In this document: one piece after another, positions 9,028 through 22,203 of the stretch | How the letters are laid out: each line of letters opens with the position of its first letter | Numbering within the stretch: position 1 is the stretch's first letter | Assembly: GCF_000419685.1 (NCBI RefSeq) | Contig: NZ_ATTM01000004.1 | Location: 310,001 to 374,000 of the forward strand | Direction of reading: 5' to 3' | DNA: 64,000 bases | From: Flavobacterium antarcticum DSM 19726 | GTDB taxonomy: Bacteria > Bacteroidota > Bacteroidia > Flavobacteriales > Flavobacteriaceae | The notes under the pieces: generated by a model | Told to the model about the DNA's origin: nothing | Databases searched by the model: none | What the model saw: only the letters and a program-made list of their open reading frames with translations | Made by a program: the position numbers and the translations under genes

Positions 9028-10173
9028 ATGTATATAGTTTACAATTTATTCGAGAATTTTTACTACAAATTTATTACCATGCCTTTGGTAATCAGAATTG
9101 CAGTAATCACGACCGTATTTTTTATAGTACTGCTGCTTTTTTACGCGCTTTTAAGTGTTTTTAATTATTATAGTAAAAAGAGAGCGGATAAACGAGAAGA
9201 GGAACGTAAAAACAATAGTGATTGTTATACCGTTTTAAAAGAGCTTCTGACTTATGAGGAAGTAATTCCTTTTATAACTTTAGAACAGGACTTTGAAACA
9301 ATCAAAGCGCGTTGTCACTCTGATCCTGAAGATATTGTTTATGAAATGTTGGTTATTAAAAATGAGTTTCCAACACAATTTAACTACGAAAACCTGCAAT
9401 CACTTTCACGTCTTTTTAACTTAACACCTTACTGGGATGGAAAGTTAACTGATAATTCATTGAAAGTAAAAATGGAAAATCTTCAGAATATCATTGAGCT
9501 TCGTGCTACTATTTCTGAATCTGTACTTTCTACCTTAGTATATCATAAAAATAGTGAGCTTCGTAAAAAAGCGCGAATTGCTCAAATTCACTTGAGTCAA
9601 CACGACCCGTTTAAGTTTTTTGATGAGGAATTTGACAAAGATTTTACCGTTTGGGACAAGATTAAGATCCACGATATTTTATTACACAGACCAATACAAA
9701 CCATTCCTAACTTTATTAGATGGGTTCCAAAAGTAAAAAATGAAAATTTACAATCCATGTTTATCTACGAAATTGGTTACTACAATCAAGTAGAAAATAA
9801 AGAATTTTTATATGATTTCTTTAAAATGACGCCTAGTGATGAGGTAAAAATTCAAATTGTCGAAACATTGAATGTTTTGGGAATTGAAGACATGGCTCAC
9901 AACTTAATCCGTCAGTACAACGCTTGTTCTGAGAACGTTCAGTTGGCTATTATAAATAATTTGAAACACATCCAAACGGATAAATTCTTACTTCCGTTTT
10001 ACGTTCACGCTTTTGAAAAAGCATACGAAACGGATTTAAAATTAGCACTTGGAGACGCAATTTATAGTTCAGAAGTAAATGGACACCGCGTGATTGAAGT
10101 TTTAGAGCGTAATGCAAAAGGTTTTGATCAACTTATTTTTGAACACATTAAAAATCCTTTGCTTTTAAATTAA
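9028..10173 (+). CDS. HEAT-repeat protein with N-terminal membrane anchor (first gene of exopolysaccharide operon)
   Basis: The 381-residue protein has a hydrophobic segment at about residues 18-45 followed by a Lys/Arg/Glu-rich stretch (KKRADKREEERKNN). That predicts a single-span inner-membrane protein with a cytosolic body. The body is all-helical with HEAT-like helical pairs, for example VLSTLVYHKNSELRKKARIA and SDEVKIQIVETLNVLGIEDM. It lies 13 nt before the GT2 synthase gene, which makes a scaffold or regulatory partner of the synthase plausible. No enzyme motif is seen. Confidence 0.75.
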   Translation: MYIVYNLFENFYYKFITMPLVIRIAVITTVFFIVLLLFYALLSVFNYYSKKRADKREEERKNNSDCYTVLKELLTYEEVIPFITLEQDFETIKARCHSDPEDIVYEMLVIKNEFPTQFNYENLQSLSRLFNLTPYWDGKLTDNSLKVKMENLQNIIELRATISESVLSTLVYHKNSELRKKARIAQIHLSQHDPFKFFDEEFDKDFTVWDKIKIHDILLHRPIQTIPNFIRWVPKVKNENLQSMFIYEIGYYNQVENKEFLYDFFKMTPSDEVKIQIVETLNVLGIEDMAHNLIRQYNACSENVQLAIINNLKHIQTDKFLLPFYVHAFEKAYETDLKLALGDAIYSSEVNGHRVIEVLERNAKGFDQLIFEHIKNPLLLN

Positions 10174-10186
10174 TTACTGACAATTT

Positions 10187-11641
10187 ATGGATACTATTTT
10201 ATACAGCTACCAATATTTAATATTTTTCTACGCCTTTTCATTGGTTGTTATTTATACAAGTTTAGCGGTGTTGGCTTTTTACAAACTGACCCAATTAGTG
10301 GCAAAAAAGAGTTCTGATACTGAAAAAATCTTTAGAGAATCACCCTTTATTCCAGGTATCTCCATTATTGCACCTGCATTTAACGAGGAAACGTCCATTA
10401 TTAATAATGTGATTTCAATGATGACCGTGAATTATCCTACTTTTGAGGTGGTAATTGTAAACGACGGTAGCAAGGACAATACGCTGCAACTGCTTATTGA
10501 TAACTTTGAAATGGTGGAAACGACTTACGCTTACGTGGAAAAAATTAAAACCAAACCATTTAAGCGAATTTTTAAATCTACCAACCCGGAATACAGCAGA
10601 CTAATCGTTGTAGATAAGGAAAATGGCGGAACGAAAGCCGACGCTTCTAATGCAGGAGTTAACGTAGCAAAATATCCCTACTTTATTTGTACGGATGTGG
10701 ATTGTGTACTGGATCGTGAAGCTTTAAGTAAAATGATTTTACCAATCATTAGTACGAAAACACGTGTAATCGCTGTTGGTGCAACGATGAGAATGGTAAA
10801 CAGTTGTAAAGTTGAAAATGGCGTTATGGTGGAAACGAGACTTCCTACGCGAATATTTCCATTGTACCAAGAAATTGAATATTTACGCAGTTACTTAATT
10901 GGAAAATTAGGTTTCTCAACAATCAATGCGGTTCACAATGTTTCAGGTGGATTGGGATTATTTGACAAAGAAATTGCAATTGGAGCCGGAGGATATGATC
11001 CTTTATCTCACGCCGAAGACATGGACATGACGACGCGTATGATTGCTTACATGATTAATTACCAGAAAGAATATAAGATTGATCAAGTACCAGAAACGTG
11101 TTGCTGGACGGAAGGACCTCCTTCGTTTCGTGTATTAAATCGTCAGAGAACACGTTGGGCTCGCGGATTATTCCAAATATTTTCTGTACACCGAAAATAT
11201 TTATTCAATAGAAAATTTAGAAAATTAGGATTGATTTCATTTCCGTATATTTTCATCTATGAGTTTTTAGCTCCTATTATTGAAATGCTGGGATACATTG
11301 TAACTATATATCTTCTTTTAGTAGGCGGAATTAATTGGGACACTGCTTTTTTAATGTTATTCTTTGCTTATGTTTTTGGAGTTTCACTTTCACTTACGAC
11401 CTTATTATATGAGCGACTTCTAGAACATCGTTTTAAAAATAGAGAATATGTGCGGTTGATATTATTTTGCTTAGTAGAACCATTTATATACCACCCGTTG
11501 ATCGTTTTTTTTAATATTCGAGGATATATTGATTATTTGACTAAACGAGATTTTGAGTGGGGAACAATGACCCGACAAGGATCACAAGACAACAAATCAG
11601 ACAAACAAAAGGGATTAAGTACCCAAACAATAGCACAATAA
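10187..11641 (+). CDS. Processive family 2 glycosyltransferase (polysaccharide synthase)
   Basis: This 484-residue inner-membrane synthase has one N-terminal TM segment (about 10-33), a GT-A domain and C-terminal TM segments (about 345-465). Every catalytic motif of cellulose, chitin and PNAG synthases is present: Asp93 in VNDGSKDNT, Asp170-Val-Asp172 in CTDVDC, Glu277-Asp278 in HAEDMDM, and Gln320-x-x-Arg323-Trp324 in NRQRTRWARGLFQ. No PilZ domain is present, so control by c-di-GMP binding in cis is not indicated. The closest architecture I recognise is PgaC/IcaA-like. The sugar is unknown. Confidence 0.88.
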   Translation: MDTILYSYQYLIFFYAFSLVVIYTSLAVLAFYKLTQLVAKKSSDTEKIFRESPFIPGISIIAPAFNEETSIINNVISMMTVNYPTFEVVIVNDGSKDNTLQLLIDNFEMVETTYAYVEKIKTKPFKRIFKSTNPEYSRLIVVDKENGGTKADASNAGVNVAKYPYFICTDVDCVLDREALSKMILPIISTKTRVIAVGATMRMVNSCKVENGVMVETRLPTRIFPLYQEIEYLRSYLIGKLGFSTINAVHNVSGGLGLFDKEIAIGAGGYDPLSHAEDMDMTTRMIAYMINYQKEYKIDQVPETCCWTEGPPSFRVLNRQRTRWARGLFQIFSVHRKYLFNRKFRKLGLISFPYIFIYEFLAPIIEMLGYIVTIYLLLVGGINWDTAFLMLFFAYVFGVSLSLTTLLYERLLEHRFKNREYVRLILFCLVEPFIYHPLIVFFNIRGYIDYLTKRDFEWGTMTRQGSQDNKSDKQKGLSTQTIAQ

Positions 11642-11645
11642 AAAT

Positions 11646-14438
11646 ATGTTTACAAAAAATTCTATACTAAAAAACACTGTAGTTGTTGCGTTTGTGCTTT
11701 TACTGAGCTTCATCGCTACTGATAAAATGTATGGTCAAGCTACAGAAGATTCCTATTTTAAAAGGGCGAATAAATTATTCAAACAAGAACGTTGGGAAGA
11801 AGCAAAGCAAATTGTAGACATCGGATTGAAAGATACGCCGTATGATGCCGATTTACTGATGTTGAATGGTAAATATTATCATTACAAACGTAATAACGAT
11901 AAAGCAAGATACAATTTGATAAAAAGTTTGCAATACGATCCCAATAATGTAGATGCAAAACAAATTTTGACAAACGTTGAAATTGAAGACAAACATTATT
12001 CTGCTGCAATTTGTTACATCAACGAATTATTAGAAGTAAATCCGTATTGGAAAGGACTTTGGCGTAAAAAAATTGAAGTATACCGCTTACAAGGAAATAC
12101 AGAAGAAGCGACTCGTTTATCAAAACGGATCAATCAAATTTATCCTGAAGATGAAAAAATCCAAGAGGATTATAGATATAATTTAAAAACTGAAATTAGT
12201 TCGCTTAAAAAGTCAGGTAAATTAGAGGAAGCATTAAAATTGACAAATGATTTGATGCTTGTTGACAAGACAAATCCTGATTTATATGTTGATGTAATTA
12301 ACACTCATCTTGCTGCAGGAGATTACGACAAAGCACTTGTCTATGCAAACAGAGCGTTAACTTTCATGCCTAATAATTCGTATTTAATTACAAAGAAAGC
12401 GTCTATACTTGCCGATCGCGGTGATTATAACGAAGCTTTGTCTTTCATAAAATCGAAAAACAAAGGTGGAAATGGTCAATTGACTACTTTATACAATCAG
12501 TTATTATTGCAAAATGCTCGTGTTCAAAACGACAGCGATCCCTATACTTTATATGGTAAAATTTTAGAGCGTTCACCAGGAAATCCAGAAGCGCTTAATT
12601 ATTTGTTGAATACTTCTTTGTCAAAAGGATTCTATTCGGATGCACAAAATTACATCAACATGGCAAAGAAATCCGGTGGTGAAACTAAGAGTATTCTTTC
12701 AAAAGAATATACCTTATATACACAAATGGGGAACGAGTCAAAAGCAAACGCAATCTTAGCTAAACTGTATACCCGTTTTCCTGAAGATGCTGATATTAGA
12801 GACAATTACATCAATTATCAGTACAAATTAGCGAGAGAAAACATGCTAAACGAACAATACCGCGAAGCTTTAATCCAGTTGTCCTTTTTGAATAATCTCC
12901 CAAAAAATGATTACTCAGAAAAAAGTATGCAGGAACTTACGCAAGCCTATTTAAAATTAGGAAGAAAAGAAGAAGCATTCGCTACTGTTCAAAAACTTAA
13001 CAGCGAATATCCAAATAGTATTGACAACCAACTTCGTAAAGTAGGCGTTTTAATAGCAATGGATCGCGACGATGAAGCCTTGACCATCTATGAAGAGTTC
13101 ATGAAAAACGCCAGTCAAAGTGAATTTCAAAATCACCTGATTGCTTATGATGAAATTGGAACTCAATTTCTTAAAAAATTAATTGAAGCAGGACAAACGC
13201 AAAAAGTTTTTGAAGTAGCCGACCGAATTATTGCATTAAATCCCGATAGCGAATTGGCGTATACCTATGCAATGAATACCGCAGCAAGTATAAACGATGA
13301 TCGATTGTTTTTAAAATATGCTGAACAGGCAATTGAAGCAAACCCAGACAGTATTTTATTCCGAACTAAATATGCTGAAGCGCTATCTACAAAAGGAGAA
13401 TTTGGAACAGCAAATAATGTTTTAAAACAATTATTGGCCGAAAATCAATACAATAAAGATGTAATCAATACCAATACGCAATTTACTTTAGATTACGGTA
13501 AAGTCCTTTATAAAGAAAAAGATGCGGATCAATTGATGCTGATTACAGATGAAGCACTTAAATACAACCCTAATAATAAAGAACTTTTATATCAAAAAGG
13601 TCAAGCTCATTTGTTATTAAAGGAATATGGCGAAGCATTTGACTACATGAAATTTTACACGCCCTCTACTTTAGAAGCAGCTGCCTTCAATAAGGAAATG
13701 GAATGGTTGCAAAACAAATCGTACAGAAACCAAGTCACTTTAAATTACTTAAGAAGTCGTTTTGCCGATGAAATTAATGTAAATTCGATTGCAACATTAG
13801 AATATACACGTTTTCAATCAGCTAAAAATACTTATACCGCAAGAATTAACTATACAGGTAGAGATTTAGGTTCTGGCGTTTTAGCCCAAGCAGAATGGTC
13901 GCATGTTTTGAATCAAAAAACTTATTTTATTGCAAATGTAGGTTACGGTTCGCGCTATTTTGCTCAAATAATTGCCAACGGAAGTGTTTTTAGAAATTTT
14001 GCAAGTGACTATGAATTAGAATTGGGACTGGGATACAGAAACTTACCTGATGTCTATACATTAACGAATATCGTCGCGGGAGTTTCGCACACAAGTGATC
14101 ACATGTGGTTAAACGCAAAAGGATTTATTTACAAAACCGATACTTCTTTAACCTTATATAATGTATTAGCACAATCTAAGTTTTACATTTTCAACGACGG
14201 AAAAAGTTTTCTACAAGCAATGACTTCTGTAGGTACAGTTCCAGAATCAGGTGCTTTAGATTTGGCTTTGTATGATTCTTATAATGCTTTTAACACCATG
14301 GTTGGTGCTGGTGGACAATATATGGTAAATAAAAGATTGACTTTAGGCTTATTAGGAAACTGGTACAACTTTAAATTCAATCCGAAAGAATATAGCAATC
14401 TCTATAATCTATACTTGACGGCTACTTATTCTCTATGA
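11646..14438 (+). CDS. TPR protein with C-terminal YaiO-type outer-membrane beta-barrel (candidate exopolysaccharide exporter)
   Basis: The 930-residue precursor has a signal peptide (hydrophobic residues 10-24, then MYGQ). About 650 residues of TPR helices follow, with repeats of the LxxxGxYxxALxxxxxAL type such as AAGDYDKALVYANRAL and NLYKxGQAHLLLKEYGEAF-like units. A C-terminal beta-rich region (about residues 710-930) with YaiO-like strands such as EWSHVLNQKTYFIANVGYG ends in YLTATYSL, an aromatic-ending barrel terminus. TPR plus barrel is the layout of PgaA and AlgK/AlgE-type exporters. It starts 4 nt after the synthase stop. Confidence 0.82.
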   Translation: MFTKNSILKNTVVVAFVLLLSFIATDKMYGQATEDSYFKRANKLFKQERWEEAKQIVDIGLKDTPYDADLLMLNGKYYHYKRNNDKARYNLIKSLQYDPNNVDAKQILTNVEIEDKHYSAAICYINELLEVNPYWKGLWRKKIEVYRLQGNTEEATRLSKRINQIYPEDEKIQEDYRYNLKTEISSLKKSGKLEEALKLTNDLMLVDKTNPDLYVDVINTHLAAGDYDKALVYANRALTFMPNNSYLITKKASILADRGDYNEALSFIKSKNKGGNGQLTTLYNQLLLQNARVQNDSDPYTLYGKILERSPGNPEALNYLLNTSLSKGFYSDAQNYINMAKKSGGETKSILSKEYTLYTQMGNESKANAILAKLYTRFPEDADIRDNYINYQYKLARENMLNEQYREALIQLSFLNNLPKNDYSEKSMQELTQAYLKLGRKEEAFATVQKLNSEYPNSIDNQLRKVGVLIAMDRDDEALTIYEEFMKNASQSEFQNHLIAYDEIGTQFLKKLIEAGQTQKVFEVADRIIALNPDSELAYTYAMNTAASINDDRLFLKYAEQAIEANPDSILFRTKYAEALSTKGEFGTANNVLKQLLAENQYNKDVINTNTQFTLDYGKVLYKEKDADQLMLITDEALKYNPNNKELLYQKGQAHLLLKEYGEAFDYMKFYTPSTLEAAAFNKEMEWLQNKSYRNQVTLNYLRSRFADEINVNSIATLEYTRFQSAKNTYTARINYTGRDLGSGVLAQAEWSHVLNQKTYFIANVGYGSRYFAQIIANGSVFRNFASDYELELGLGYRNLPDVYTLTNIVAGVSHTSDHMWLNAKGFIYKTDTSLTLYNVLAQSKFYIFNDGKSFLQAMTSVGTVPESGALDLALYDSYNAFNTMVGAGGQYMVNKRLTLGLLGNWYNFKFNPKEYSNLYNLYLTATYSL

Positions 14439-16582
14439 AAATGATTTTATTACAAGTTTTATTATGTTCTCTATTATTTTCTTGCGGTTCTTCCCAAGAA
14501 GATGATCAAGCAATTGCATACGACAACTATGTAATTACGAAACCTAATGAGGAAAACAAAGATGCAGTCAACTATTTGTATCATCATTTTAAGAAAAGAA
14601 CAGCTCCTGGAATTGTTTTAATGCAAGGTGTTGACGCTATTCCATCTAATACATCGAAGATGCAATTCATTGATGTGGCAATTGACTCACAGTTAAATGA
14701 TGATTATCAAATTATAAAAAAAGACAACAAATTAATTTTCAAAGCAAGGTCAAAAAAAACACTCTACTGGTTGTACTATCAGTATTTTCAGGCATTAAGT
14801 GCGAACGATTCTAAAATGAACGGTGCTGATTTACCACCATCAATTGTCAGTTTTAAAGATTCGAAAGATGGAAAATTTGCATTCCAATATCGTGAACCTT
14901 ATTTGCAAGCTAATTTAGTTGAAGATTACGATGTAATTGTAAATACCAATAATGTAGAAAAGGATTGGGGAATTTGGGGCCACCAACTTTTCAACCTGCT
15001 TAATAAAGCACCTAAAAATACATACTACAGTACAGTAAATGGTACGTTGAATAAAAATCAAATTTGTTTCAGCAACCCTGCAGTTTATTCATTTTTAGAA
15101 GATTACATAATTGATAATTTTGGCGAAAAAGAAACCTATCAACAAAATTTTGTAATCAGTCCTGCAGATAATGGACTGGTTTGTACTTGTAGTTTGTGTT
15201 TAAAAGCAGGAAATACGAAAACAAACGCTAGTTATTCTGTCGTAGCGCTGGTAAATAAATTAGCGGTCCGTTTTCCAAGCCATCAGTTTTTTACTATTGA
15301 TTACATTACAGTAAATACACCGCCTACTACTCCAATGCCAAAAAACACAGGAGTTCTCATCAGTTCTATTGATATTCCACGTAAAGTGAATTTAGATTTA
15401 AATAACGGTTATGTAAAAGAGTTTGAGTCCAAAGTTAATAAATGGAAGAAGGTATGTTCAACAGTTTATGTTTGGGATTACATTTCTAATTTTGACGATT
15501 ATTTGACGCCTTTTGCCACATTATCGGTAGCGAAAACAAATTTTAATTTTTTTAAAAAGTTGGGCGTCACTGGCATTTTTGCCAATGGAGCAGGTTATGA
15601 TTACAGTACTTTTAATGCGGTACACACCTATGTATTAGCTGCATTAATGCAAGATCCTACGTTAGACGTAAATGGATTAGTTACTAAATATTGTGACTTT
15701 TATTATGGTGCTTCAGGTCAGATGATTGCAGATTATATTTTGGGGTTGGAAAAGGTCATGCAAAACAAAAACATCAAATTAGATTTATACAACGGCGTTA
15801 AAAAAATGACGGGAACTTATTTAAGTAAGCAGGAGTTTTTTGATTTTTATAATGCAGTCAAAGATGCAAAAGACAGCGGCGACGAAGAAGTAGTTATAAG
15901 AATGAACCAACTATACACAGCCTTAACGTTTACGGCGATGCAAATTGAATTAGCAAATAAACTCGACGAACAATTTGGCTTTGCAACTCTACAAGAGAAC
16001 AGAATCGTGGTGAACGAACAGTTTGTAAATCAATTTAATGTTTTTTCAGAACAATTTAAATTGAATGATATTTTTACAACGCGCGAGACCGAAGGAACAG
16101 TTTCGAACTATTTGAAAGATGTACAGACGGTAATTTTAAATGGTACATTAAAACCAAACTTGCTCACGAAATCAACTTTAAAAGTAACGAGTGAACTTGA
16201 CGAAGATTATTCTGATGCAACTTTATTAACGGATGGAATTCCAGGTTTAAGTTCAGATTATCACAATGCTTGGTTGATCGTAACTGCCCATGATTTTTCA
16301 GCAGAAATTACTGCTCCAAAAGAGTCAGGAATGTATCATTTTAATTTCAATTTCCTCGTTGACGGACGTTTAAAATTAACCGCTCCAGAAAAAATAGAGA
16401 TCATAATTAACGACAAAATTGTAAAAACAATAACGTCTCCCGTAAAAACACGTGATGCAGCAGAACGCATGACGCTAACAACAACAGTGCCTCTCGGAAC
16501 AAATGACCAAATTAAAGTCAAAATTTACCGTGATAAAACCATAAAAAAATTCGCTTGTGATGAAATTTATTTGTACAAATAA
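14435..16582 (+). CDS. DUF4838 lipoprotein, putative periplasmic glycan-active protein
   Basis: The 715-residue protein has a lipobox (LLFSC, Cys17). The region WLYYQYFQALS ... PPSIVSFKD ... WGIWGHQLF resembles DUF4838, a family related to alpha-glucuronidase-like glycoside hydrolases. CTCSLCLKAG is a Cys-rich loop at about residues 250-258. A C-terminal beta-sandwich, possibly carbohydrate-binding, starts near residue 590 (SELDEDYSDATLLTDG). Its position after an exporter suggests a polymer-trimming or modifying role analogous to PgaB; that is inference. It overlaps the TPR-barrel gene by 4 nt. Confidence 0.75.
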   Translation: MKMILLQVLLCSLLFSCGSSQEDDQAIAYDNYVITKPNEENKDAVNYLYHHFKKRTAPGIVLMQGVDAIPSNTSKMQFIDVAIDSQLNDDYQIIKKDNKLIFKARSKKTLYWLYYQYFQALSANDSKMNGADLPPSIVSFKDSKDGKFAFQYREPYLQANLVEDYDVIVNTNNVEKDWGIWGHQLFNLLNKAPKNTYYSTVNGTLNKNQICFSNPAVYSFLEDYIIDNFGEKETYQQNFVISPADNGLVCTCSLCLKAGNTKTNASYSVVALVNKLAVRFPSHQFFTIDYITVNTPPTTPMPKNTGVLISSIDIPRKVNLDLNNGYVKEFESKVNKWKKVCSTVYVWDYISNFDDYLTPFATLSVAKTNFNFFKKLGVTGIFANGAGYDYSTFNAVHTYVLAALMQDPTLDVNGLVTKYCDFYYGASGQMIADYILGLEKVMQNKNIKLDLYNGVKKMTGTYLSKQEFFDFYNAVKDAKDSGDEEVVIRMNQLYTALTFTAMQIELANKLDEQFGFATLQENRIVVNEQFVNQFNVFSEQFKLNDIFTTRETEGTVSNYLKDVQTVILNGTLKPNLLTKSTLKVTSELDEDYSDATLLTDGIPGLSSDYHNAWLIVTAHDFSAEITAPKESGMYHFNFNFLVDGRLKLTAPEKIEIIINDKIVKTITSPVKTRDAAERMTLTTTVPLGTNDQIKVKIYRDKTIKKFACDEIYLYK

Positions 16583-17141
16583 TTCTACAATTTTGATAGT
16601 AAAGAAAACATTTTCTTTGCTTAAATTGCTAATGATTTTATCGGTGATGGTTTCTTGTGATTATAAAGAACAATTAGTTGATGTGAAAATAGTGGATCCA
16701 GTAAGACATTACTATCCAATTCTTCAAGGTCAAGAACTAAATATTATAATTGAATTAGAGAATAAAAGCGATTCGCCTTTTAAAATCACTGATATTTTAA
16801 CTTCATGTGGATGTGTAGTTGTGAAAAAGGGAACATTTGATGTTATTCCAGCTCAAAGCACAGGCTATTTAGAGTTAACATACAACAGTAATAAAAATAT
16901 TGGACTGGTAAACCACTTTATTTACATTTATGGAAATCTAGATAAAGTGAATAAATTAGAAGCTAATTTTGACGTTCATGTAGTTCCTGATGCATTATAC
17001 ACTCCTGATTATGAAGAATTATACCGCAAGGAAGTAGATTCAAAAGCAGGAACAAAAAATGCAGTAGAAGGAAACGAAAATGAAAAAGGCTACTATACCT
17101 CATCCGATGACAGCGATGAAGAAAATAATAACACGAATTAA
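16557..17141 (+). CDS. DUF1573 lipoprotein
   Basis: The 194-residue protein has the DUF1573 Ig-like core: ELENKSDSPFKITDILTSCGCVVVKKGTFDVIPAQST, with the CGCV motif. A lipobox (MVSC, Cys34) follows a KKTFSLLKLLMILS hydrophobic stretch. The annotated ATG overlaps the DUF4838 gene by 26 nt and gives a long n-region. An in-frame TTG about 36 nt further on (IVKKTFSLL) is an alternative start and would give a more normal lipoprotein signal. The tail is Asp/Glu/Asn-rich. DUF1573 proteins are common in Bacteroidota exported systems but have no fixed function. Confidence 0.75.
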   Translation: MMKFICTNNSTILIVKKTFSLLKLLMILSVMVSCDYKEQLVDVKIVDPVRHYYPILQGQELNIIIELENKSDSPFKITDILTSCGCVVVKKGTFDVIPAQSTGYLELTYNSNKNIGLVNHFIYIYGNLDKVNKLEANFDVHVVPDALYTPDYEELYRKEVDSKAGTKNAVEGNENEKGYYTSSDDSDEENNNTN

Positions 17142-17155
17142 ATAAAGCTATAAAA

Positions 17156-17599
17156 ATGGAAGAATATTCAGACCTTAAATTCGACGGAGATTTGTCATTT
17201 TTAAATGAAAATCTAGATGCTGCGAAAAATGAAGTAAAGGCAAAAGTTGAAGAGCAAGCTAAACAAGAGCCTGTTGCAACTAATTACAATACAGGAACAC
17301 CAACACCTCAAAATACTGAAGAAAAAATGGAAAAATTCAATGAAACTGTGAACAATCAAAATACAAGTTCATCTAATTCTAATGAAAATCAAGTAAACAA
17401 TAGAATGGATTCAAGAATGATTGATCAAAATGCTCCTCAATTTGGTGAGAAAAAAAGCCAATTAGAAGCTATGGTTCTTAGTTCAGGATACGGTCCAGAG
17501 ATGTTTGATAAATTGAAAATGGAGCTTCTTGAAATGGAAAAAGAAAAAATCATCATGAAATACAAACAAGATTTGATGATGATGATTATAAAAAGCTAA
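17156..17599 (+). CDS. Small Asn/Gln/Glu-rich protein of unknown function, last gene of exopolysaccharide operon
   Basis: This 147-residue protein lacks a signal peptide and TM segment. Residues 15-95 are low-complexity (NTGTPTPQNTEEKMEKF, NNQNTSSSNSNENQVNN). The last 50 residues form a Met-rich amphipathic helix (LKMELLEMEKEKIIMKYKQD). No family is recognised. It lies 14 nt after the DUF1573 gene, with a strong terminator about 150 nt downstream, so it belongs to the operon. A cytosolic regulatory or adaptor role would be speculation. Confidence 0.6.
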   Translation: MEEYSDLKFDGDLSFLNENLDAAKNEVKAKVEEQAKQEPVATNYNTGTPTPQNTEEKMEKFNETVNNQNTSSSNSNENQVNNRMDSRMIDQNAPQFGEKKSQLEAMVLSSGYGPEMFDKLKMELLEMEKEKIIMKYKQDLMMMIIKS

Positions 17600-17745
17600 G
17601 TAGTGCATTCTATAAAAAGAATTTGCTAGTGATCAGATTAAGTAGGGAAAGAATTTATTTCTAAAACCTGATAACCTTTATATACATTACTAAAAACTAC
17701 TTGGTTAAATAGTTTTAGTTAAATATTACATGTGGCCTTAATAAG

Positions 17746-17780
17746 AAGTTTACTGAATGTACAATTCAGTAAACTTTTTA
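17746..17780 (+). terminator. Terminator of the exopolysaccharide operon
   Basis: A perfect 13-bp stem, AAGTTTACTGAAT with ATTCAGTAAACTT, around a 5-nt loop (17759-17763), followed by TTTATATTTT. Confidence 0.88.
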
Positions 17781-17841
17781 TATTTTATAGCTATCCCATT
17801 TCACTTGAAAAATATATAAAAGTGATATCGCTAATTTTATA

Positions 17842-19557: not shown

Positions 19558-19890
19558 TTAACCTGCCATTTGTCTGCATAATTCAGCACATTTTTTACAA
19601 GCTTCAGCACATTCTTGACAATGTTTCATGTCGTGTTGGCTACATTCTTGGTAACATCTCTCGCACATTTCTGCACATAATTTACAGAAATCTTTTGCTT
19701 TGTCACTTCCTAAACTCATTAATTGAGCAGCAGCATAACAAACAGCGGCACATTCCATATCAAATTGAATGCATTTCGCCATCATTTTAATATCGTCTTC
19801 TGTCAAACATTCTGAAGCACAATGATTGCAAAGTGCAGCACATTTTAAACAAGCTTCGATGCAGGATTGGTAATCGTGGTAATTTTTCAT
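19558..19890 (-). CDS. Csp-type four-helix-bundle copper storage protein
   Basis: This 110-residue cytosolic protein contains 19 cysteines, mostly in CxxC and CxxxC spacing along four helices, for example CIEACLKCAALCNHC and CQECAEACKKCAELC. That is the pattern of copper storage proteins in which thiols line the bundle core. No signal peptide is present, so it is Csp3-like (cytosolic) rather than exported Csp1. It is a single gene, convergent with sulP. A TAAATTTG -7 element lies on its strand at 19913-19920. Confidence 0.88.
   Translation of the reverse strand: MKNYHDYQSCIEACLKCAALCNHCASECLTEDDIKMMAKCIQFDMECAAVCYAAAQLMSLGSDKAKDFCKLCAEMCERCYQECSQHDMKHCQECAEACKKCAELCRQMAG

Positions 19891-20091: not shown

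Positions 20092-22203
<2,112 letters not shown>

Follow-up and report, generated by a model that had tools for sequence, protein, structure and literature searches.

A conserved five-gene operon of Flavobacterium antarcticum as a probable variant of synthase-dependent polysaccharide secretion with a HEAT-type partner protein

The stretch of Flavobacterium antarcticum DSM 19726 DNA analyzed here, 64,000 nucleotides in length and hereafter called the window (contig NZ_ATTM01000004.1, positions 310,001 to 374,000 of the forward strand), belongs to a genome of 3.08 Mb and carries six co-directional open reading frames (ORFs) on its + strand at window positions 9028-17599. A preliminary description of this DNA had read them as one tightly packed operon for exopolysaccharide (EPS) synthesis and export, built around a family 2 glycosyltransferase (GT2). 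The six genes and a hairpin downstream of them are as follows.

9028..10173, +: gene 1, HEAT-type alpha-solenoid, predicted to be anchored in the inner membrane, 381 aa (AlphaFold model, structure matches)
10187..11641, +: gene 2, membrane-bound GT2, putative polysaccharide synthase, 484 aa (Pfam, motifs)
11646..14438, +: gene 3, signal peptide-like N terminus, TPR repeats and C-terminal YaiO barrel, putative export pore, 930 aa (Pfam/NCBIfam)
14435..16582, +: gene 4, DUF4838 lipoprotein, 715 aa (Pfam, lipobox, predicted fold)
16557..17141, +: gene 5, DUF1573 lipoprotein, Ig-like domain, 194 aa (Pfam, lipobox)
17156..17599, +: gene 6, co-directional Asn/Gln-rich protein, not conserved, 147 aa (ORF)
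17741..17781, +: hairpin of 18 pairs followed by a T-rich tail, resembling an intrinsic terminator (terminator scan)

Consecutive genes were spaced by +13, +4, -4, -26, and +14 nt. The gene order was then examined in 80 named loci, which were picked by GT2 alone through a GT2 alignment scan of named GTDB genomes, as the top 80 of 450 confirmed, with genes called by six-frame profile searches. This sample over-represents close relatives of the window synthase, and some of its loci are not independent: L131 and L132 come from one genome and have identical GT2s, and L096 and L107 appear to be the same records as L081 and L080. The complete order HEAT-GT2-TPR/YaiO-DUF4838-DUF1573 was found in 55 of the 80 loci, and another 14 broke off at a contig end or close to it, their remaining genes in order, including L147, whose DUF4838 frame ends about 290 nt short of the contig end. 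According to their labels, the carriers belong to Flavobacteriaceae, Weeksellaceae, Cryomorphaceae, Crocinitomicaceae, Sphingobacteriaceae, Chitinophagaceae, Bacteroidaceae, Prevotellaceae, Rikenellaceae, Muribaculaceae, Dysgonomonadaceae, and others, the gut genera Bacteroides, Prevotella, and Alistipes among them; three loci labeled as other phyla (L093, L120, and L148) look like mis-binned Bacteroidota contigs. Within the genus, the window DUF4838 was matched in 62 of 398 genomes, of which 11 besides the window's own had close relatives of it (30-35% identity, E < 1e-79); all 11 of these orthologue loci kept the five genes in the same order. The recurrence of these neighbors in other genomes, which the preliminary description had made one test of its proposal, was thus borne out for genes 1 to 5.

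The genes outside the block vary between lineages, so the conserved order is not mere synteny. Same-genus carriers are scattered over several places of the GT2 tree, which we read as the block moving between lineages, with differential loss as an alternative. Furthermore, pairwise distances of the five proteins correlated over 51 of the 56 complete loci (window counted), most strongly for HEAT and GT2 (Pearson 0.92, Spearman 0.69) and likewise strongly for TPR/YaiO and DUF4838 (Pearson 0.88, Spearman 0.78), a pattern that shared ancestry alone also yields. Of the alignments, A1 omits L075 (stops in DUF4838) and A2 omits L078 (GT2 and TPR-YaiO in one frame), and A5 and A6 hold only loci with DUF4838 (60) or HEAT (68) in one frame and within a set length range. 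Of these two omitted same-genus loci, L075 (genome G261) holds the operon in decay, its TPR-YaiO gene being split, and at L078:4234-8499 (G394) GT2 and TPR-YaiO read as a single open frame of 1421 aa, through either a sequencing error or a true fusion.

Gene 2 matched Pfam Glycos_transf_2 at 3.3e-17 and has one N-terminal and several C-terminal hydrophobic segments. The catalytic motifs that the preliminary description had listed as D, DxD, ED, and QxxRW are all present, as D93, D170xD172, E277D278, and Q320xxR323W324, and they are intact in 74/74 family A rows and 22/22 other rows of the GT2 tree set. Domain, motifs, and hydrophobic segments together are those expected of an inner-membrane polysaccharide synthase. 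Its best NCBIfam family was PgaC_IcaA (4.5e-34), with 118.1 bits where the curated cut-off is 422.3; CelA scored 29.7 bits (cut-off 699.1) and NodC 33.1 bits (2.9e-8; cut-off 550). Membership in a Pga, Bcs, or NodC-like system was therefore rejected by these cut-offs, so that the other test named in the preliminary description, whether the synthase belongs to a well-described system, also came out in its favor. PelF/PelA and Alg8/Alg44/AlgE were not named among the best 25 NCBIfam rows for each of the six proteins, a search in which no Pel- or Alg-specific models were run.

A Pfam scan of gene 1 gave no HEAT match. Its AlphaFold 2 (AF2) model, however, was all-helical with a predicted local distance difference test score (pLDDT) of 92.9, forming an alpha-solenoid of two-helix repeats, and its closest structures were HEAT-like alphaRep and armadillo proteins, with a best Z of 14.3; the structure tool warns that Z values up to about 13 are common among helical repeats. 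Because armadillo proteins scored within 1-1.5 of the best alphaRep Z, the family name HEAT is approximate. A single strongly hydrophobic segment (residues 24-42) is followed by basic residues, and under the positive-inside rule basic residues past a membrane helix mark the cytoplasmic side, so the solenoid is placed in the cytoplasm. These data suggest that gene 1 encodes an inner-membrane-anchored HEAT-type solenoid facing the cytoplasm, in agreement with the membrane-anchored HEAT protein described earlier as to fold and anchor.

Gene 3 carries a hydrophobic segment at residues 7-25 and about 650 aa with TPR repeats (TPR_19 at 6e-28), and its YaiO barrel exceeded both curated cut-offs, in line with the earlier assignment of a TPR-plus-YaiO barrel: YaiO was matched as PF19413 (7.9e-19, 68.7 bits; cut-off 23.9) and as TIGR04390 (35.0 bits; cut-off 32). 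Scores for PgaA (36.9 bits; cut-off 366.65) and the BcsC exporter (44.7 bits; cut-off 858) stayed below theirs. The periplasmic TPR part and the outer-membrane pore thus appear to be joined in one protein.

Gene 4 has the lipobox LFSC and DUF4838 as its sole Pfam match (6.5e-43); GH20 (glycoside hydrolase family 20) was not matched. Its AF2 model (pLDDT 93.5; predicted template modeling score, pTM, 0.92) shows an N-terminal accessory domain, a GH20/84/67/115-like barrel, and a C-terminal beta-sandwich. In a Foldseek search it resembled GH115, GH84, GH138, GH20, and GH67 enzymes (families as given in the entry names), with 6q63 (BT0459) as the best match (E 1.2e-15). A VIA alignment with 6q63 covered 500 residues (Z 17.1, root-mean-square deviation [rmsd] 10.5, 12% identity), and another matched residues 575-715 to the discoidin-type domain of DDR1 (4ag4; Z 12.5, 133 aligned, rmsd 2.6). 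A profile match to 6q63 (6.7e-11) spanned the N- and C-terminal domains, leaving the barrel unaligned. The predicted model therefore points to a glycosidase-type fold, which is what the preliminary description had proposed to look for. Invariant in 61/61 DUF4838 rows were W178, W181, G182, H183, Q209, D245, C250, C252, C255, Y290, S310, W337, W347, D348, Y349, G380, Y452, and E551. Placing catalytic residues on GH20 was abandoned, because the local alignment was C-terminal only and a forced global alignment, untrustworthy over the barrel, was left unused. A polysaccharide deacetylase domain of the PgaB type was not found by Pfam in any of the six proteins.

Gene 5 matched DUF1573 at 8.1e-12 and has the lipobox MVSC; 55 of the 80 named loci, and likewise the 11 from the same genus, have it in this place. 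It overlaps gene 4 by 26 nt and uses a GTG start, so that the limit of 14 nt given earlier for gaps and overlaps did not hold; its true start may lie further in. Gene 6 had no Pfam or NCBIfam match, no homologue by phmmer in a six-frame translation of the 80 related loci, including downstream of DUF1573, and no BLASTP match in the 11 same-genus loci, one of which (L073) has a contig ending soon past DUF1573. It was rejected as a member of the system and probably lies outside it; of the six packed genes described earlier, all are present as ORFs and five form the conserved unit.

Next, the pairing of HEAT and GT2 was followed beyond the genus. In a phylum draw, the GT2 was matched at E 1e-100 or better in 87 of 395 genomes, and 78 loci outside the genus were surveyed from the matches listed (G040 and G053 excepted), with a HEAT profile to which upstream genes from the genus and the order had first been added. 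A HEAT-profile gene lay directly upstream of 39/39 GT2s in the own, same-genus, and same-order loci (11 close orthologues); one also lay upstream of the GT2 in 75 of the 78 phylum loci and in 77 of the 80 named loci, and no HEAT match fell outside this slot in 1.05 Mb. Near six of six more distant GT2s, HEAT was not found within the roughly 1.5 kb searched on each side. A receiver domain occurred on the same strand within 3.5 kb upstream in 64 of the 78 loci and, by a stricter count that required a short ORF with this domain no more than 500 nt ahead of HEAT, in 51; within the stretches retrieved, 51 of the 78 had a YaiO match and 28 a PF00884-type gene. Among the 80 named loci, a receiver match was found upstream in eight, all of the tandem type described below, and additionally in L115 by BLAST clustering; operons of the five-gene kind mostly have no such regulator.

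A paralogous cluster in the same genome (G000:C2:253600-262700; L033:7667-16947) has a GT2 40% identical to gene 2 that falls in a separate clade of the GT2 tree. Its order is response regulator, HEAT, GT2, PF00884/TPR membrane protein, YaiO barrel, DUF4838, and response regulator. It thus shares the HEAT-GT2 pair, the YaiO barrel, and DUF4838 with the window operon and differs in its response regulators on both sides, in the PF00884/TPR protein between GT2 and YaiO, and in the lack of a visible DUF1573 gene.

Two further arrangements were observed. Tandem GT2 genes occurred in L134, L136, L139, L148, L149, L158, L161, L170, and L172 (also L133); in the eight loci checked both copies keep the motifs, a receiver match lies upstream in eight, and DUF1573 is not downstream where the contig continues. 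Two intact sets of motifs suggest two activities and hence possibly a two-sugar polymer. In L048:8752-12183, Pfam found the GT2 fused to a PF00884 domain in one protein. Upstream of it lie a hybrid histidine kinase, a response regulator, and HEAT, and a YaiO gene runs convergently; by ORF lengths, L049 and L050 resemble L048.

Regarding control, no GGDEF or PilZ match was obtained in any of the 12 operon-bearing genus genomes, with control genomes positive and other receptors of cyclic di-GMP (c-di-GMP) not searched. GGDEF occurred in 203 of the 395 phylum-draw genomes, and among the GGDEF-positive rows listed, only two belonged to the window's class or closer. Elsewhere the pair does sit beside such genes: outside the window's class, seven loci (L229, L234, L236, L237, L239, L240, and L241) have a GGDEF-motif gene at some 2-2.7 kb from the GT2, in five of them with an adjoining HEAT detected, and a Pfam GGDEF lies within a few kb on the same contig in G630, G644, G735, and G769. 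Since GGDEF and PilZ gave no match here and HEAT also stands beside GGDEF elsewhere, the system seems able to do without c-di-GMP in this genus, and HEAT looks like a general partner. The proposal that HEAT simply replaces a PilZ or PgaD partner was accordingly not upheld, and HEAT as a simple c-di-GMP replacement was weakened; the protein looks instead like a core subunit, presumably a scaffold or gate for the synthase. Given a response regulator before HEAT in most wider relatives, the usual control there is probably a phospho-signal, with a phosphorylated response regulator that would act on HEAT.

The class of synthase-dependent EPS systems comprises cellulose, acetylated cellulose, poly-N-acetylglucosamine (PNAG), alginate, and Pel, and is defined in a systematic survey by an inner-membrane synthase, a c-di-GMP-binding regulatory domain or co-polymerase, a periplasmic modification enzyme, and a periplasmic TPR protein with an outer-membrane pore (PMC7112194). 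The window operon has the synthase and the TPR/pore part, a DUF4838 lipoprotein of predicted glycosidase fold as a candidate for the modification enzyme, and no c-di-GMP part that was found; the likeness thus extends to an inner-membrane synthase, a TPR plus outer-membrane pore, and a periplasmic glycan-enzyme-like protein in one operon. It differs from that class in its HEAT solenoid as a constant partner and in its DUF4838 and DUF1573 lipoproteins, and its relatives further have a response regulator and often an enzyme of PF00884 fold. On these features the operon would work like a synthase-dependent system and represent a new variant, Pga and Bcs being excluded by the curated cut-offs. We therefore consider that the five genes probably form a synthase-dependent polysaccharide secretion machine, most likely a distinct variant, with c-di-GMP not its driver in this case. 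Text searches of the open-licence PMC literature turned up no account of the operon, and the portions of the survey of such operons used here mention neither Bacteroidetes nor YaiO (PMC7112194).

In the proposed mechanism, the GT2, with a cytosolic active site and a membrane channel, would polymerize a nucleotide sugar and pass the chain across the inner membrane. HEAT, held in the membrane by a single N-terminal helix and reaching into the cytoplasm with its solenoid, would always accompany the synthase as its scaffold or gate, and in most wider relatives a phospho-signal would run from the response regulator to the HEAT-synthase pair. TPR-YaiO would take over the chain in the periplasm and lead it out via its outer-membrane barrel. 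DUF4838, as an envelope accessory, probably acts on the polymer by trimming, remodeling, or binding it, and DUF1573 may contribute an Ig-like structural or binding part.

Other explanations were weighed against this reading. The operon could be a divergent Pga/Ica system that makes PNAG with a PgaC orthologue as its GT2 and has had its accessory genes exchanged. PgaC_IcaA is the top NCBIfam relative of the GT2, the TPR-plus-barrel exporter is laid out like PgaA, and the nearest folds of DUF4838 include a beta-hexosaminidase and O-GlcNAc hydrolases; however, the GT2 scores 300 bits below the PgaC_IcaA cut-off, a PgaB-type deacetylase is absent from the six proteins, the barrel is of the YaiO family, and the related GT2s are the HEAT-partnered group, so that we hold this to be quite unlikely. 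Slightly less likely still is a system with a short product, in which the GT2, in the manner of NodC, yields only an oligosaccharide or a glycolipid and TPR-YaiO moves or displays it. The length of the GT2 and its low-scoring NodC match agree with such a product, and a demonstrated transport function for YaiO barrels was not found among the matches listed from the open-licence literature. Yet NodC membership fails by a wide gap in bits, and the usual marks of a processive synthase are present here, namely the QxxRW motif, several membrane segments toward the C terminus, and a long partner protein with TPR and barrel. The YaiO barrel family itself is shared with E. coli YaiO/YaiP/YaiS, where a GT2 and a deacetylase lie near yaiO; HEAT, DUF4838, and DUF1573 genes are not known from that neighborhood.

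Alternatively, HEAT might have replaced a c-di-GMP sensor at a late stage, in lineages from which c-di-GMP disappeared. The 12 operon-bearing genus genomes without GGDEF and PilZ matches, and the mere two GGDEF-positive rows from the window's class or closer, are what such a history predicts, but the HEAT-GT2 pairs next to GGDEF-motif genes in other classes and the Pfam GGDEF matches in G630, G644, G735, and G769 speak against it, and we regard it as unlikely. That unrelated neighbors were packed together by chance or general operon dynamics describes gene 6 well; for the other five it is refuted by an order kept in 55 of 80 loci across many families with varying flanks, and its probability is close to nil.

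Several observations weigh against a secretion machine of the kind proposed. Of the 80 named loci, 11 are true variants: seven with two GT2 genes lack a downstream DUF1573 (L134, L136, L148, L149, L161, L170, and L172; L170 has a weak DUF1573 match upstream instead), three lack DUF4838 (L143, L162, and L171), and L152 carries HEAT-GT2 alone. DUF4838 occurs in only 6 of the 78 wider loci, and in L086 and L088 it sits in clusters without a GT2 of the synthase family, whose neighbors read like sugar-degradation enzymes, so it is not exclusive to the system. Compared with BT0459, a GH20 protein named a beta-hexosaminidase, and with GH84, GH67, and GH115 enzymes, DUF4838 shares domain layout and fold; apart from the low identity and the barrel unaligned by profile, it differs from BT0459 in a whole-chain TM score of only 0.33/0.32 and in the residue following D245, which is Asn in 50/61 rows. 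A profile comparison with 18 GH20 relatives, moreover, aligned the C-terminal domain alone (probability 94). For these reasons, DUF4838 may be a non-catalytic binder. The HEAT proteins vary widely in sequence, with 18-34% identity to that of the window, and 3 of the 78 loci have no HEAT match: in L227 and L236 an ORF of 371-374 aa without such a match fills the slot, and L237 is not clearly readable. The window operon itself has no response regulator, so the control model rests on relatives. Finally, polymer export, the subunit roles, the sugar used, and the flow of the signal are what we infer, with synthesis, translocation, and processing of the polymer modeled on the class definition above (PMC7112194).

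Beyond the window operon, there is about an even chance that a further Bacteroidota-wide class exists, in which a GT2 is tied to a membrane HEAT solenoid and is as a rule switched through a response regulator and not by c-di-GMP, with differing outfits: DUF4838/DUF1573, a PF00884-fold decorating enzyme, a GT2-PF00884 fusion, or tandem synthases giving a two-sugar polymer. If so, the Bacteroidota, abundant in guts, soils, and seas, would own a polymer-secretion machine, and matrix polysaccharide would be seen to be controllable without GGDEF or PilZ. DUF4838 and DUF1573 would then gain a testable role, and a solenoid-partnered GT2 would be offered for structural work. Because the operon occurs in Bacteroides, Prevotella, and Alistipes, the polymer could also matter to gut colonization.

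Some minor observations concern the surroundings of the operon. The single terminator placed downstream in the preliminary description corresponds to the 18-pair hairpin listed above, although terminator-like sites in the region were no commoner than expected by chance (4 versus 4.7 in shuffles); a promoter scan of the region was uninformative (41 sites versus 42.3 in shuffles). By Pfam, the operon is flanked by an acetyl-CoA hydrolase-type gene on one side and a sulfate-permease-type gene on the other. In nine Bacteroidales loci (L131, L132, L140, L141, L142, L153, L157, L159, and L167), a protein of one BLAST cluster, which is DUF4842 by Pfam in L132 and L141, is encoded directly upstream of HEAT and is preceded by bactofilin-type genes in L132, L140, L159, and L167 (Pfam: L132 and L140). 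An NAD-dependent epimerase/dehydratase gene (PF01370), which reads as UDP-glucose 4-epimerase, follows DUF1573 in L074, L104, and L105, too few loci for a substrate call. Further along the window, a GH97 glycosidase, matched by each of the three Pfam domains of that family, lies at 20104-22203, and a Cys-rich ORF of 110 aa with DUF326 repeats, reminiscent of four-helix copper-storage proteins, lies at 19558-19890 on the - strand.

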